From the NCBI GenBank assembly GCA_030583865.1, contig CP129479.1, forward strand, positions 124,001 through 188,000: a stretch of 64,000 nucleotides of DNA. Reading direction: 5' to 3'. The notes below the pieces were generated by a model that worked only from the letters and a program-made list of their open reading frames with translations, made no database searches and had not been told where the DNA came from. This document shows positions 6,939 through 63,406 of this stretch, piece after piece. The translations under genes and the position numbers were made by a program. Source of the DNA: Thermodesulfobacteriota bacterium. Lineage in GTDB: Bacteria > Desulfobacterota > GWC2-55-46. Each line of letters opens with the position of its first letter. Position 1 is the first letter of the stretch.

Positions 6939-7327
6939 ACTGAACTTTGTGAGTCAAAAAAATGTTGATTCTATCCCGCATCAGCACGCATCATTCATGC
7001 AAGTCCCACACGCCGCGGCGCGATTTTTAGCATTTCCCCTTACTTCCTTTAACAATCCCCAATACTCTTAGGGTTCACAATACCCCGGCGGCTTGCCACG
7101 TTTTTCCCCCTCCCCTTAATCCCCTTCCGTCGAGGGAGGGGAAGTATAAGGAGACACACCCGGCTTGCTGCGGGGTAGTTCATTCCCCGGCCTTCCGGGA
7201 AAAGCGGGAAAAATCTTCTGATTTTTGGAGGTTGCCTGAAGGTGTAGGTTAGAGCCGGCTTAAGGCGTACTTCGGATAAGGCAGGACTATACGGGGAATT
7301 TCGTCGGCCAGTACAGGCGGCGGGAGG
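6939..7327. other. Non-coding gap at possible prophage boundary
   Basis: No supported gene. The left part (6939-7080) is A+T-richer, like the prophage genes. The middle has a GC-rich inverted repeat near 7108-7142. The right part contains a remnant of repeat family A. If the prophage end lies downstream of its repressor, as in Mu, it should fall between 6058 and about 7080. Confidence 0.4.
7176..7237 (+). repeat. Truncated copy of palindromic repeat family A
   Basis: Only the right arm of the family A element remains: the ATTCCCCGGCCTTCC and GCGGGAAAAATC segments and the terminal GGAGGTTGCCT. A GTAGTTCATT junction joins part of the left interior to the right interior. The left terminal repeat is not found nearby, so the copy is degraded. 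Confidence 0.6.
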
Positions 7328-23658: not shown

Positions 23659-23815
23659 TTAGCAGGCTGCTGAAAAAGCCCAATCTGCTGTGTCGTCTTC
23701 AAACTTGGACACTCCGGCGTACAAAATAGTACGCCCCATTCCTCATTTTTCGACTCCTTGCATCTTGAGCTTTTTGAGCAGTCTGCATGATTTTGAGTTT
23801 TTCAGCACCCTGTTA
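23659..23815 (+). repeat. Dispersed repeat family B, copy 2
   Basis: Matches copy 1 (7552-7708) over its length: TTAGCAGGCTGCTGAAAAAG at the left, central hairpin GGCGTAC...GTACGCC, inner arm CTTGAGCTTTTTGAGCAG and outer arm GTTTTTCAGCACCCTGTTA. Its last base is shared with the first base of the adjoining family A copy. Confidence 0.85.
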
Positions 23816-23961
23816 GGCAACCTCTGAAAATTGTTCTTTTCCCCGGATTCCAGGTAGTTATGGGAATAAAGATGCTCGCATATTATAATAATATGCTCCG
23901 CTTTTTATCCCCGGCCTTCCTTGACTGCGGGAAAAACCCTAATTTTTTTATGAGGTTGCCT
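23815..23961 (+). repeat. Palindromic repeat family A, copy joined to family B
   Basis: A 147-bp copy from AGGCAACCTCTGAAAATT to ATGAGGTTGCCT. The inner arms ATGGGAATAAAGATGC and the later GCTCCGC...TATCCCCGG match the family, and the centre (CATATTATAATAATATG) is a fresh palindrome of different sequence from the other copies. Confidence 0.88.
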
Positions 23962-25023: not shown

Positions 25024-28000
25024 ATGGGCGGCGTAGGCATAGTACTCGGTCTTTTTCTCGTCTTTTCCGTTGCCGTCTCCTGGGTCTCTGGAGACAAGGA
25101 GAAGAACAGGCTCGAGCTCTCCATGAAGGAGAGGGGCGCCAAGGAGAAGCAGCTCGAGGAAGAGATAAAGAAGGCCAAGATAAAGTTCGCACAGGACGCC
25201 GAGGCCCTGAAGGACATAGAGAGCAAGCTAAAGGCCGAGGTCGCTGAAAAGAGGAAGGTAGAGAGGGCGCTCGCGCAAGAGGAGCGCCAGAGGAGGATGC
25301 TCGAGAAGGCGGGCGCTACCGTCGATATAGAGCAGGAAAGAGAAAAGATCAGGTCAGAAATTGAGGCCAGGACGAAACAGGAGATCGCGAGCCTCGAAGA
25401 AAGATTGAACGCCGTCGAGGAGGCCAGGAAGAGGCTTGAGGCTGAGATGAAGCTCAAGCTTGAGGAGGGGGCCAGGAAAAAGGCCGAGGACGCCTGGACC
25501 CAGGCCGAGCTTGCCAGGGCAAAGGCGCAGGAGTCGGCTGCGCGAGCCGGCGAGCTGGAATCAAGGCTCAAGGAGCTTGAAAAGGCCGGGAAGGAAATGG
25601 AGGCCCGCCTCCAGCAGCACGAGTTCGCGAGGATGGACGCAGAGCGCCGCCTTGCCCAGGAAAAAGAGGCCAGGGACTCCATGGAAGCCATGCTCAAGGA
25701 GTCTGAAGAGGCCCTTGCGGCGGCGCGGGCCCAGGCCGAGGCCGTAAAGGAAACAGCGCTTGAAGAGGCTTCGCCAGCAAAGCCTGAACCAGCCATAGCA
25801 GCCCGGGAAGCGGCCGCGGAAAGGTCCGCATCCCCCACGGCTCCCGCAACCCCAAAAGATGACCGGCTCATCGCCGACCTCGAAAGCGCGAGAGACGAGG
25901 CCAGGGCAAGGCTCGACGAGAGCCTTGCGGCACTGACCAGGCTCGAGGGCGAGGTCGGCTCGCTCACCGCCGAAAGAGACCAGCTCAAAACAGATTCCGC
26001 TCAAAAGGAAGAGGTGATCGCCTCTCTACGCCAGGAGCTCGAAATGGCGCGGGAGTCGGAGGCCGGGCTCAAAAGGGAGCTCGCCTCCCTTAACGCCGCA
26101 GCCATTCAGGCCAAGGCCAATGCGGAGGCCGAAATAAGGGCGCGGCTCGAGGTCGAGACGGCGAAGGCAGCCGAGGCCCTTGGCCAGGCGGAGCTCGCGC
26201 TCAAGCAGGCAGAGGAGGCCGGGAAAAGGAGCGCGGAGCTCGAGATAAGGCTCGCCGAGACCGAGAAGATAAGCCAGGCTTTTGAGGCGACTCTTCGCGA
26301 GCAGGAAACCCTTAAGAAAGAGGAAGAGCTTAAGCTCGAAAATGCGCTCAAGGAGAAGGAGGCCATCGAGGCGAGGCTCGCCGAGGCAGAGGAGCAATTG
26401 AAAGCGGCCGTTGCTTCGGCGGAAGGTGCCGGGGAGCCCGCTCCCGGACCGGAGACGACTGTAGCCGCAGGGCCGTCCGGCGGTAAGGGGGCCGAGGAAG
26501 CGTTTGCAAAGGTCGCGGAACTTGAGAAGTCAAGGGACGAGGCCAGGGCGGCGCTCTCGGAGCTTGAGGATGAGCTCAAGAGTATTAACGCCGACCGCGA
26601 GCTCATGGCCGGCGAGATTTCCGGCCAGGCCGATACGATAGAGGCGCTCCGGTCAGAGCTCGAAGAATCGAGAAGGGCCGAGGCGGCCTTGAGGGGCGAG
26701 ATAGAGGCGAGGCTTGCTGAGCTTGAGAACGCAAGGCTCGAGCTTGCCAGTGAGACTGGCCTTGGCAGCAAAGAGGAATCCGACAGTGTCAGGGCGGCTT
26801 TGGAAGAGGCCGAGATTGCGAAGAAGAGCGCCCGGGAAGAGGCGGCCAGGGGCGCGGCGCTGGAAGCCAAATACGCGGAGCTTGAGACCGCGAAAAAGTC
26901 CATGGAGGCTTCGCTTCGCCGGCACGAAGAGGTCCGGGCCGAGGCCGAGCTCAAGCTCTCGCGCGAAAAGGAGGCGAAGGACCAGCTCGAGGCCAGGCTC
27001 AAGGAGGCGGAAGAGGCTCTCATTTCGGCAAGGGCCTCGATGGACGCGGTAAGCGAGAAGTCCCTCGCGGAACCCGCTGATACCGATGTTACGGCCTCGA
27101 TGGAAGAGGAGCTGGAAAAGGCCAGGAGGGAAGCAAGGGCGGCGGAAGAGGAAGCCGTCTCCGCAAGGAAAGAGACCGAGGCCGCGAACCTCATAATAGC
27201 AGAGCTCGAGAGGTCAAGGGACGAGGCCAGGGTAAGGCTCGAAGAGAGCATGGCTTCCATTTCCACGCTTCGCGAGGAGATGGCCAGGACACAGGGCGAG
27301 GCAGAGCTTATTAGGAAGAACGAGTCCGAGGGGGCAAAGGCGCTGGCCCTCCTCAAGGAGGAGCTTAAAGAAGCCCGTGGGGCAGAGGCAGGGCTCAAGG
27401 CTGAATTCGAGAGTCTGGAAGCCGTCTCCAGAGAGGCGCTTCTGAAAAAGGAGACAGAGAGGGAAGGGCTGGCAGCCAGGGCCGCGGCCCTTGAAGAGAA
27501 GCTCGCGGCCGCGGAAGCGGCCCGCGTGAAATCAGAAGAGGCCGCAAAGGCCGGCCTTGAGTCGATCGTGGCGCTCGAAAGGGAGGCCGCAAGGCTCAGA
27601 GACGAGAGAGAGCTTGCGGTAAATGACGCTGCCCATAAGGCCCAGGCAATTGCCGCGCTCAGGAACGAGCTTGACGAGACGAGAAAGGCCGGGGTCGGAC
27701 CGGGGGAGAGGACAGAGGAGCTGGCCGCCGTGCCGGTTGAGACAGCGCCTGCGTCCGTTGAAGAGCCCTCGACGAGAATAAAGGAGCTTGAGACGAGGCT
27801 TGCGGAGGCGGTAGCGGCGCGCATGAGATCAGATGATGCCGCGAAAGCCGTAGCAGAGGCCCTCGCCGCGCTCGAAAAGGATTCCGCGCTCCTCAGGAAG
27901 GAGAATGAGCTTGCGGTGAACAAGGCGTCTCAGGAGGCCCAGGCAGCGGCCTCGCTCCGTAGCGAACTCGAATCTCAAAGGGAGAAAGAGGCAGCGCTTA

Positions 28001-43877: not shown

Positions 43878-44297
43878 CTTTCACGTGAAATTATTCTGCT
43901 ATACTGATTGGGCAACCTCTAAAAATTGATCTTTTCCCCGGACCCTGGGTAGTTACGGGAAGCGGGTAAAATCTCCAATTTTCAGAGGTTCCCGGATAAA
44001 AGCCGGGTCCGACAGTGGACTCCGGAAACTCCCCTTGATGGAACAGGCCTGTTGTGTTAGAAGGTAAAGGGGCGGGAACCAATATTCCCACGGGGCAGGT
44101 CGTTTTCCCAGCCGGCAGACCGAAATCCAGATGGGCGGGACAGGCGGCGTAATGTAAAGACCTTTCCTGCGCCCTTTCGAACCACCCTTCAAAAGGCTTA
44201 GAGGCGCTGTTATCCCGGAAGATGTTCCGGTTTTGTAGCAGCCTTGAAATTATCCAAAAATATGGTTTGACCGGAAGCGGCGAAAGGAGGTTTTTCA
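43878..44297. other. Intergenic leader before the aldolase gene
   Basis: It contains the deleted family A copy (43910-43993). The remaining 300 bp are GC-mixed, with no coding signal and no riboswitch that I recognise. AAAGGAGG precedes the aldolase ATG. Confidence 0.4.
43910..43993 (+). repeat. Internally deleted copy of palindromic repeat family A
   Basis: 84 bp: left arm GGGCAACCTCTAAAAATTG through CTTTTCCCCGGACCCTGG, then a jump from GTAGTTACGGGAAGCGGG to AAAATCTCCAATTTTCAGAGGTTCCC. The central hairpin part is missing, while both outer arms remain and still pair. Confidence 0.85.
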
Positions 44298-45659
44298 ATG
44301 GAGTTCAAGTCCATCGGCAGTCTCTATGACGCCCTCAAGGGCGCCGTAAAGGAGGTCAGGGAAGGGGCGGTCGAGGTCCTCGACGAGAGGCTCGTGCGCG
44401 GCGCGGCCATAGACAGGCTCGTCTACAACGCCGTCTTCAGCTCAAATGGCGAGGTCCGGGACACCTCAAGAAAGCTTATAAAGTACATCGCGCTTGGGCT
44501 CGGCATACGCTCCGCCTCCATACAGGGCCTTTACGAGGCAATGGGCAGGGGCGAGTGCGGGGGCTTCACGGTCCCGGCCATAAACATCCGCGGCCTCACA
44601 TACGATACGGCCCGGGCCATATTCAGGTCGGCCCAGAGGAACAACTCGGCTACCTTCATATTCGAGATAGCGAAGAGCGAGATAGGATACACCGAGCAGA
44701 GGCCTGCCGAATACACGGCCTGCTGCCTGGCTGCCGCCATAAAAGAGGGGTGGAGGGGCCCGGTATTCCTCCAGGGCGACCACTTCCAGATAAACGCGAA
44801 GAAATACGTCCAGGACAGGGAAGCGGAGATACGGGACCTCAAGAAGCTCATAAAGGAGGCGATAGACGGGGGTTTCCTCAATATCGACATAGACGCCTCG
44901 ACCGTCGTGGACCTCTCGAAGCCCACCGTCACCGAGCAGCAGAGGCCGAACTTCGAGACCACCGCCGTCCTTACGGACTACATAAGGGAGAACGAGCCAA
45001 AGGGCGCGACCATCTCGGTCGGAGGCGAGATAGGCGAGGTCGGCGGAAAGAACTCGACCGAGGAAGAGCTTCGCGCCTTCATGGACGGCTTCCTTGCGGC
45101 CCTGCCAAAGGGCAGGAAGGGCATAAGCAAGATAAGCATACAGACCGGCACCTCTCACGGCGGGGTCGTGCTCCCGGACGGCACGATAGCGAAAGTGAAG
45201 GTGGACTTCGACACCATAGCGAGGCTCTCGAAGGTCGCGAGGGAGGCATATCAGCTCTCTGGTGTAGTCCAGCACGGCGCATCGACCCTTCCGGACGACG
45301 CCTTCGACCTCTTCACCAAGAACGGCGCCTCGGAGGTGCACCTCGCGACCGGCTTCCAGAACATAATCTACGACAACCCGGCCTTCCCCGAGGGGCTCAA
45401 GAAGGAGATTTACGCCCACCTTGCCGATAAGCACTCGGACGAAAGGAAGCCCGCGGACACCGAAGAGCAGTTCATCTATAAGACAAGGAAAAAGGGCTTC
45501 GGCCCGTTCAAGGAGAAGATCTGGACCCTCGACGAGGACAGGAAGAAGGCCATAGCAGATGAGACCGAGAAGAAACTCGACCTCTATTTCCGGACGCTCA
45601 ACGCGCGGAATACGAAAGACCTGGTCTCCAAGTACGTAAAGGCAACCTCTAAAAATTGA
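44298..45659 (+). CDS. Class II aldolase, long form
   Basis: 453 residues. The class II (zinc) aldolase fold shows FLQGDHFQINA (zinc His region), IDIDASTVVDL, SVGGEIGEVGG, QTGTSHGGVVLPDG and VVQHGASTLPDDAF. It is longer than ordinary fructose-bisphosphate aldolases, with an extra N-terminal helical part (about 1-85) and a C-terminal extension (about 375-453). Fructose-1,6-bisphosphate is the likely substrate, but tagatose-bisphosphate-type activity cannot be excluded. The last five residues (ATSKN) and the stop are read from the left end of repeat A, so the original C-terminus has been replaced. Confidence 0.85.
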   Translation: MEFKSIGSLYDALKGAVKEVREGAVEVLDERLVRGAAIDRLVYNAVFSSNGEVRDTSRKLIKYIALGLGIRSASIQGLYEAMGRGECGGFTVPAINIRGLTYDTARAIFRSAQRNNSATFIFEIAKSEIGYTEQRPAEYTACCLAAAIKEGWRGPVFLQGDHFQINAKKYVQDREAEIRDLKKLIKEAIDGGFLNIDIDASTVVDLSKPTVTEQQRPNFETTAVLTDYIRENEPKGATISVGGEIGEVGGKNSTEEELRAFMDGFLAALPKGRKGISKISIQTGTSHGGVVLPDGTIAKVKVDFDTIARLSKVAREAYQLSGVVQHGASTLPDDAFDLFTKNGASEVHLATGFQNIIYDNPAFPEGLKKEIYAHLADKHSDERKPADTEEQFIYKTRKKGFGPFKEKIWTLDEDRKKAIADETEKKLDLYFRTLNARNTKDLVSKYVKATSKN

Positions 45660-45783
45660 TCTTTTCCCCGGACCCTTTGTCAGGCCGGGAATAAAAATGC
45701 TCACATATTGTCATATATGCTCCGCTTTTTATTCCCGGCCTTCCTTGATTGCGGGAAAAATCTCTAATTTTTAGAGGTTGCCT
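45640..45783 (+). repeat. Palindromic repeat family A, full copy in aldolase 3' end
   Basis: 144 bp. AGGCAACCTCTAAAAATT at the left and AATTTTTAGAGGTTGCCT at the right are a perfect inverted repeat. Inside, TTTTCCCCG/CGGGAAAAA and CGGGAATAAAAATGC/GCTTTTTATTCCCGG also pair, so the whole element can fold as one long hairpin with a loop near CACATATTGTCATATATG. It lies between the aldolase and efp genes and provides the aldolase stop codon. Confidence 0.95.
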
Positions 45784-45854
45784 AAAATAATGAAATACGG
45801 CGCGGCCGTATGTTATAATGTCCGCACAAGTTCTTGAAAGGAGCCGAGAGGCAG

Positions 45855-54329: not shown

Positions 54330-54473
54330 AGGCAACTTCTTAAAATTGATCTTTTCCCCGGACTCTGCGTAGTTACGGGAATAAAAATGCTCACATAATA
54401 TCATATATGCTCCTCTTTTTATTCCCGGCCTTCCTTATTTGCGGGAAAAACCTCAAATTTTCAGAAGTTGCCT
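54330..54473 (+). repeat. Palindromic repeat family A, full copy between larB and larC
   Basis: 144 bp. The arms read AGGCAACTTCTTAAAATT and AATTTTCAGAAGTTGCCT. Relative to the aldolase copy, both arms carry the matching change (CCTCT to CTTCT and AGAGG to AGAAG), so pairing is kept. The inner arms GGGAATAAAAATGC and TTTTTATTCCCGG are unchanged. It fills almost the whole larB-larC gap. Confidence 0.95.
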
Positions 54474-62780: not shown

Positions 62781-62813
62781 TTAGTCTGTACTCTCCTTTT
62801 AGTCAATCTCTTA

Positions 62814-62957
62814 AGGCTACCTCTAAAAATGATTATTTTTCCTGATCTCTGTGTCAGGGCTGAAATAAAAATGCTCACATATTCCCATATATGCTGCGCT
62901 TTTTATTTCCGCCCTTCCTTGACCTCAGAAAAAATTCTTAATTTTTAGAGGTAGCCT
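62814..62957 (+). repeat. Palindromic repeat family A, full copy between hsp20 and lon
   Basis: 144 bp. The arms read AGGCTACCTCTAAAAAT and ATTTTTAGAGGTAGCCT. Both differ from the other copies at the same paired position (A/T swapped in GGCAACC and GGTTGCC), which keeps the palindrome. Flanked by TTA on the left and TAA on the right. Its last base is the final base of the hsp20 stop codon. Confidence 0.95.
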
Positions 62958-63406
62958 TAAATGGATTCCACCGGCACCTTTTTCGTAGAGTTTCTCTTAT
63001 CCTGGACCCTCGGAAGCGTTACAAGGAGTATGCCATTCCTGTACACTGCCTTTGCCCTGGCCGTGTCCACCGGGTACGGGAGGTCTATCGACCGGAAGAG
63101 CCTGCCGAAGGACCTCTCCATGCAGACGTAGTTTATCTTGTCCTCCTCGAAGCACTCGAATTTCACGGATCTGATGATGAGCTTGTCCCTGGACATGGTC
63201 AGGTCTATGTCTTCCCTCCTCACGCCCGGGAGCTCGACCTCGATTACGAGCTCGTCCTGGGTGGCGTACATGTCGAGGGCCGGCATGTGGGTTATGGGCT
63301 CGGGCTTGAAAAAGCTCTCGCCCTCGTCCAGGCAGTCGAAAAGGAAGCGGTTCAGGTGCTCTGTCTTTACTGGCGTCTTAGTCGGTTTTTTGGAGAATTT
63401 GGCCAT
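62957..63406 (-). CDS. Hsp20-family small heat-shock protein
   Basis: 149 residues with an alpha-crystallin domain (about 45-140): DELVIEVELPGVRREDIDLTMSRDKLIIRS, GRLFRSIDLPYPVDTARAKAVYRNGILLVTLPR. The N-terminal arm is basic. It acts as an ATP-independent holdase in the cytoplasm, consistent with lon next to it. The stop codon abuts the repeat A copy. No sigma-32-type promoter was found in the 57 bp upstream, so it may be read through from galU. Confidence 0.92.
   Translation of the reverse strand: MAKFSKKPTKTPVKTEHLNRFLFDCLDEGESFFKPEPITHMPALDMYATQDELVIEVELPGVRREDIDLTMSRDKLIIRSVKFECFEEDKINYVCMERSFGRLFRSIDLPYPVDTARAKAVYRNGILLVTLPRVQDKRNSTKKVPVESI

Follow-up and report, generated by a model that had tools for sequence, protein, structure and literature searches.

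A 64-kb stretch of the chromosome of a Thermodesulfobacteriota bacterium (the window) holds several copies of a palindrome in which changes in one arm are matched by changes in the other. Is the repeat kept by selection on its hairpin or spread as a mobile element, and, if it moves, what moves it? The preliminary description listed copies of 144 bp at 45640-45783, 54330-54473 and 62814-62957, a 147-bp copy at 23815-23961, an internally deleted copy (43910-43993), a remnant (7176-7237) and the paired arm changes CTTCT/AGAAG and GGCTACC/GGTAGCC, and each of these was recovered. The copies stood but the limits of the element did not: the outermost base on each side belongs to a 4-bp target duplication, so that the element itself is 142 bp long and the first copy runs from 45641 to 45782, with TAAA on both flanks. 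The features of the window are:

7176..7237 (+), remnant consisting of a copy's right-hand part
23816..23960 (+), older full copy of the AGTTA subtype, flanked by minus-strand genes for GAPDH and 3-dehydroquinase
43911..43993 (+), 83-bp short version in which the inner hairpin is missing
45637..45640, TAAA, target duplication to the left of the 45641 copy
45641..45782 (+), complete 142-bp copy of the MITE, with a class II aldolase-like gene on one side and an elongation factor P gene on the other
45783..45786, TAAA, target duplication to the right of the 45641 copy
54331..54472 (+), full copy of the AGTTA subtype with matched CTTCT/AGAAG ends
62811..62814, TTAA, target duplication to the left of the 62815 copy
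62815..62956 (+), full copy of subfamily B with GGCTACC/GGTAGCC ends, flanked by two minus-strand genes, lon and one for HSP20
62957..62960, TTAA, target duplication to the right of the 62815 copy

The open reading frame upstream of the 45641 copy (44298-45659) ends inside the element. At the 54331 copy, which is flanked by genes for a larC-like nickel insertion protein and an AIR carboxylase-like protein on the minus strand, the target duplication has faded beyond recognition.

A mobile element with 4-bp target duplications

The element is a non-coding, near-perfect palindrome with the ends GGCAACCTCT...AGAGGTTGCC. Its two ends are nearly identical, and the GGCAACCTCTAAAAATT ends lie in inverted orientation, constituting terminal inverted repeats. 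The central motif AATAAAAATGCTCACATAT occurs four times in the window (0.00 expected) and is absent from shuffled sequence. The strand forms a single long hairpin whose stability is far beyond chance (z of -11.3 as single-stranded DNA and -10.3 as RNA), and no Rfam covariance model matched the copies at either the gathering or a relaxed threshold. Short versions of 71-103 bp that lack the inner hairpin are present elsewhere in the genome.

The genome-wide search that the preliminary description had proposed was performed with a covariance model built from 33 copies. It detected 149 distinct copies, all on the closed chromosome of 2,751,635 bp, and the full copies of the window are a small part of this set. 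All but one (148/149) are intergenic when genes are called by a simple ORF method. Along the chromosome, the terminus-proximal 190 kb (G000:C1 1.21-1.40 Mb) is almost empty of copies and the interval from 500 to 700 kb holds ~26. By blastn the MITE was found in 25 of 40 relatives, mostly members of its own family plus a few genomes from sister families, and complete genomes of family members without it exist (e.g. G007 and G009). The named MAGs that carry the motif are uncultured groundwater 'Deltaproteobacteria'. The central motif was absent from viral contigs, where a single isolated end-motif match lacked the rest of the element, and blastn found no MITE on plasmids.

Evidence for transposition came from the flanks. 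Among the 108 copies with intact GG...CC ends, 39 are bordered by an exact 4-bp duplication, compared with 3.3 expected and a highest count of 8 in 300 shuffles; length 4 alone was enriched among the duplication lengths tested. The target consensus is palindromic and AT-rich (A-N5-TTAA-N5-T), with TTAA the commonest exact duplication (8/39) alongside many other tetramers. Empty sites were sought by joining the flanks of seven young copies with one copy of the target and comparing the result with five congeners. The insertions at 2072051 (ATAA), 686862 (TTAA) and 2638477 (TCAA) are filled in the own genome and precisely empty in congeners, where the empty sites hold a single target copy, and the site filled at 1457289 (TTAA) is empty in several relatives. 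Sites turn over between close species. Most of the relatives' copies tested lack an orthologous counterpart (16 of 59 matched).

The inverted ends, the 4-bp duplication and the empty orthologous sites support the identification of the family as a MITE, the first of the two possibilities (a MITE or a REP/RNA-like element) that the preliminary description had set side by side. Moreover, a palindromic target combined with a duplication of fixed length points to a DDE-type transposase acting on double-stranded DNA, by the established chemistry of transposition.

The element shares with described bacterial MITEs (Coxiella QMITE, ERIC, Correia/NEMIS; PMC10969869) a short non-coding sequence, inverted-repeat ends, a stable stem-loop, AT-rich intergenic sites and direct repeats that fade with age. 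It differs from them in that it was matched here to no described family, is strongly oriented with respect to replication and has no autonomous partner among the sequences searched.

Arm covariation between and within copies

The matching arm changes had been taken to imply that the hairpin itself is under selection or is copied from a template. Across subfamilies the pattern is borne out: 97.3% of cells are paired, seven pairs have changed on both sides, and the covariation score is 0.101, compared with 0.057 for shuffled and ≤0.055 for slid alignments. Most of this signal is one split, that between subfamilies A and B, and within subfamily B the compensated pairs number four and the broken ones seven. 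When the 149 copies were compared with their nearest neighbours, 66 paired sites had changed on both sides yet remained paired (~18 expected), and 738 had changed on one side, counting both breaking changes and those involving G·T.

Change in place was assessed at insertions that have orthologues in G005 or G001, using 15 of the 16 pairs found. Here 81 base pairs were broken, 24 had changed to or from G·T, 2 were compensated and 5 were otherwise double, with 4.7 double changes expected by independence. Paired sites had diverged by 8% per base and unpaired sites by 12%, which is only a weak contrast. With 81 pairs broken against 2 compensated, the hairpins of resident copies are not being kept paired; they decay neutrally in place, and for them the structural claim of the preliminary description, which depended on arm changes preserving the pairing, largely fails. 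Because compensation marks the differences between subfamilies, it arose in source lineages. Copies inherit their matched arms from source elements, in which transposition itself could demand like ends. Covariation is real between subfamilies, yet it is not evidence for a function of resident hairpins, and a repeat family can show it in its arms without any selection on resident copies.

Two further observations concern the sequence of the element. Subfamily B copies in the own genome (e.g. G000:C1 2435892, 1117110 and 520880) have unlike ends, the left GGCTACC and the right reading GGGTGCC, and in relatives the subfamily has matched GGCTACC/GGTAGCC ends; two end types may be recognised. Separately, a G006 copy (L039:1501-1642) with a left flank orthologous to L036 carries the change TGCTC to TGGAC at both direct-repeat positions in the loop region.

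Orientation relative to replication

The copies are not placed at random with respect to strand. On the chromosome, 134 of 149 (~90%) are co-oriented relative to replication, forming two arcs that meet near 25 kb and 1.45 Mb. These breakpoints were obtained by fitting to the orientation data, and the position of dnaA and the GC skew serve as independent markers, both of which agree. One of the two flips in orientation coincides with dnaA, at 26,360, and the other is near the terminus; skew in sampled DNA around the copies, with the elements masked, was +0.030 on the right replichore and -0.040 on the left. An unfitted division at dnaA and its antipode (1.40 Mb) reassigned a single copy (1427828).

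When copies were ranked by age using the model score, those in the anti-orientation numbered 3/50, 5/50 and 7/49 from the youngest to the oldest third. The small number among the youngest indicates that the bias is already present in young copies and then decays. All 24 copies of the AGTTA subtype in G000, including those at 54331 and 23816 in the window, are co-oriented with replication. The anti-oriented copy at 447941 has an orthologue in the congener G005 that agrees with every other copy on its contig, as expected if the neighbourhood had inverted later.

Strand runs were also observed in relatives. In G005, 72 of 81 neighbouring copies share a strand (40 expected), one 481-kb contig holds 24 of 24 on the same strand, and another shows a single clean switch. 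Among other genera, G016 shows a tendency in the same direction (7 of 8, P 0.04), and G014 has no strand runs (10 of 19 neighbours concordant), so that not every member of the family shows the orientation bias.

Orientation and replication both go unmentioned in the review of prokaryotic MITEs (PMC10969869), and the literature search returned no paper on the replication orientation of MITEs. Fork-directed orientation has been documented for Tn7 TnsE and IS200/IS605 (PMC5371812), and PMC5371812 and PMC4549789 describe it for IS families with beta clamp-binding transposases. The present element resembles IS200/IS605 and Tn7 TnsE in that its orientation mirrors replication direction (PMC5371812). 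However, IS200/IS605 elements move as single-stranded DNA without a duplication, whereas the MITE has one of 4 bp, and Tn7 is large and encodes its own targeting proteins, whereas the MITE is non-coding and nearly symmetric.

Taken together, this is a new MITE family whose replication-polar orientation is unusually strong and for which the searches found no mobiliser. A fork-polar orientation of ~90% in an element whose two ends are almost the same provides a clean natural signal that insertion is coupled to replication. The lineage is represented here only by uncultured genomes, and the signal makes testable how a near-symmetric pair of transposon ends becomes oriented at the fork. In such genomes, the copies could mark replichore arms and past inversions.

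Candidate mobilisers and the origin of the orientation

MITEs derived from the IS5 subgroup have GG ends, a 4-bp AT-rich target and a YTAR duplication. The GG termini and the 4-bp duplication with a TTAA-like centre are alike in the family described here, but its target is not strictly YTAR and no gene for an IS5-type transposase (PF01609) was found in 24 genomes, among them the closed own genome. Searches for PF13586 and PF13546 found no gene in 15 genomes each, and the four classes searched in the own genome and relatives yielded no IS4/IS5, IS701 or IS1380-type transposase. The one PF13701 hit was below threshold and was rejected; it lies in G005 on a short, GC-rich, foreign-looking contig (L407, G005:C32) that carries IS1380-like and IS21-like transposase fragments and is probably assembly contamination.

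The preliminary description had suggested looking for a full-length transposon with the same ends; none was found, whether among the orphan arms of the own genome or among arm pairs in 1.7 Mb of sampled DNA. The arm-pair search returned short versions, one chance pair across an ABC-transporter-like gene and a nested second MITE. This second palindrome has the ends GGAAGCTCTGATTAATTC, resembling those of the 142-bp MITE, and a core of the GTCATTCTGAGC or GTCATTGCGAGC type, and in several relatives it has inserted into copies of the 142-bp MITE at CTAA/TTAG-like (YTAR-like) targets (examples at L035:1640-1780, L036, L290, L293 and L265). Such nesting of an element with similar ends suggests a shared or related enzyme. 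What moves an abundant and recently active MITE becomes a testable question, four candidate transposase classes having been searched without a find.

Our favoured explanation, which we consider probable, is that an orphan MITE is inserted by a fork-coupled DDE-type transposase, where both the coupling and the enzyme class are what we infer from the pattern of insertion. The enzyme would act in trans, recognising GGC(A/T)ACCTCT ends and inserting the double-stranded MITE at palindromic, AT-rich A-N5-TTAA-N5-T targets, mostly intergenic, with formation of the 4-bp duplication. Insertion would be tied to the replication fork, with the beta clamp as one possible link, such that almost all new copies would have the C-rich '+' strand as template for the lagging strand. 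Reportedly, Gomez 2014 is the primary paper on the beta clamp and IS orientation. Orientation would later be lost only slowly, via inversions, and resident copies would decay neutrally while source copies retained matched arms. The failure of the searches to find a transposase, the near identity of the two ends, between which the enzyme would have to distinguish, and the unbiased G014 count against this explanation.

A trans-acting enzyme outside the IS4/IS5/IS701/IS1380 types, perhaps a host or unrecognised protein, might read an internal asymmetry of the element at the fork, a proposal that we make tentatively. If it were true, the MITE would be a genome-wide natural recorder of fork direction.

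Unlikely, on balance, is selection or deletion after insertion, in which both orientations land and copies with the stronger hairpin on the lagging-strand template are removed, for example by hairpin nucleases or fork stalling. The minus strand gives the stronger single-stranded DNA fold in nearly all copies, and co-oriented copies do carry the weaker-folding strand as lagging-strand template. However, the strand difference (~3 kcal/mol) is small relative to the total, anti-oriented copies do not differ in strand-fold asymmetry (P 0.14), and the youngest third is already 94% co-oriented, with the bias weakening rather than building up with age.

A repeat maintained by the host as an RNA, terminator or chromosome-organising site, its direction serving replication or segregation, would fit the intergenic placement, the tracking of replication and the stability of the family across many genera. 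We regard this reading, in which the element would not be a selfish MITE, as improbable, given that resident copies decay with broken pairing, that their sites turn over with few orthologues between close species, that Rfam gave no match and that the complete genomes G007 and G009 lack the element.

Mobilisation as a REP/REPIN system through lagging-strand single-stranded DNA would account for the orientation, since Y1 enzymes act on that strand, and a RAYT (Y1) gene is indeed present: it encodes 179 aa, occurs once (1702622-1702987; L306:1363-1902, about G000:C1 1702484-1703023) and has one intact copy in many relatives, among them MITE carriers. The MITE also resembles REP/REPIN-RAYT systems (PMC6006769) in being palindromic, intergenic, high in copy number and inherited vertically, in a genome that has a single RAYT. 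Nevertheless, the gene is surrounded by its own cognate REPs (GTAGGGTGCGC...GCGCACC, with GTAG), and arms of the 142-bp MITE are absent within 1.5 kb of it. Moreover, the MITE has no GTAG/GTGG foot (its ends are GGC...GCC) and makes 4-bp duplications, which the Y1 mechanism does not, rendering this route, and with it the REP alternative of the preliminary description, very improbable.

Finally, the orientation could be a by-product of gene orientation, the element inserting or being retained in a fixed direction relative to transcription, and genes flanking the copies are themselves leading-strand biased; this is scarcely credible, because, by simple ORF calls, copies follow the fork not only where both flanking genes are on the leading strand (69 with, 5 against) but also where both are on the lagging strand (25 with, 3 against). 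In the window, three of the four full copies lie between minus-strand genes, yet all four point plus. Matching of base composition was rejected as a cause as well, since the C-rich plus strand of the MITE (34 C, 27 G) sits on the G-rich leading strand.
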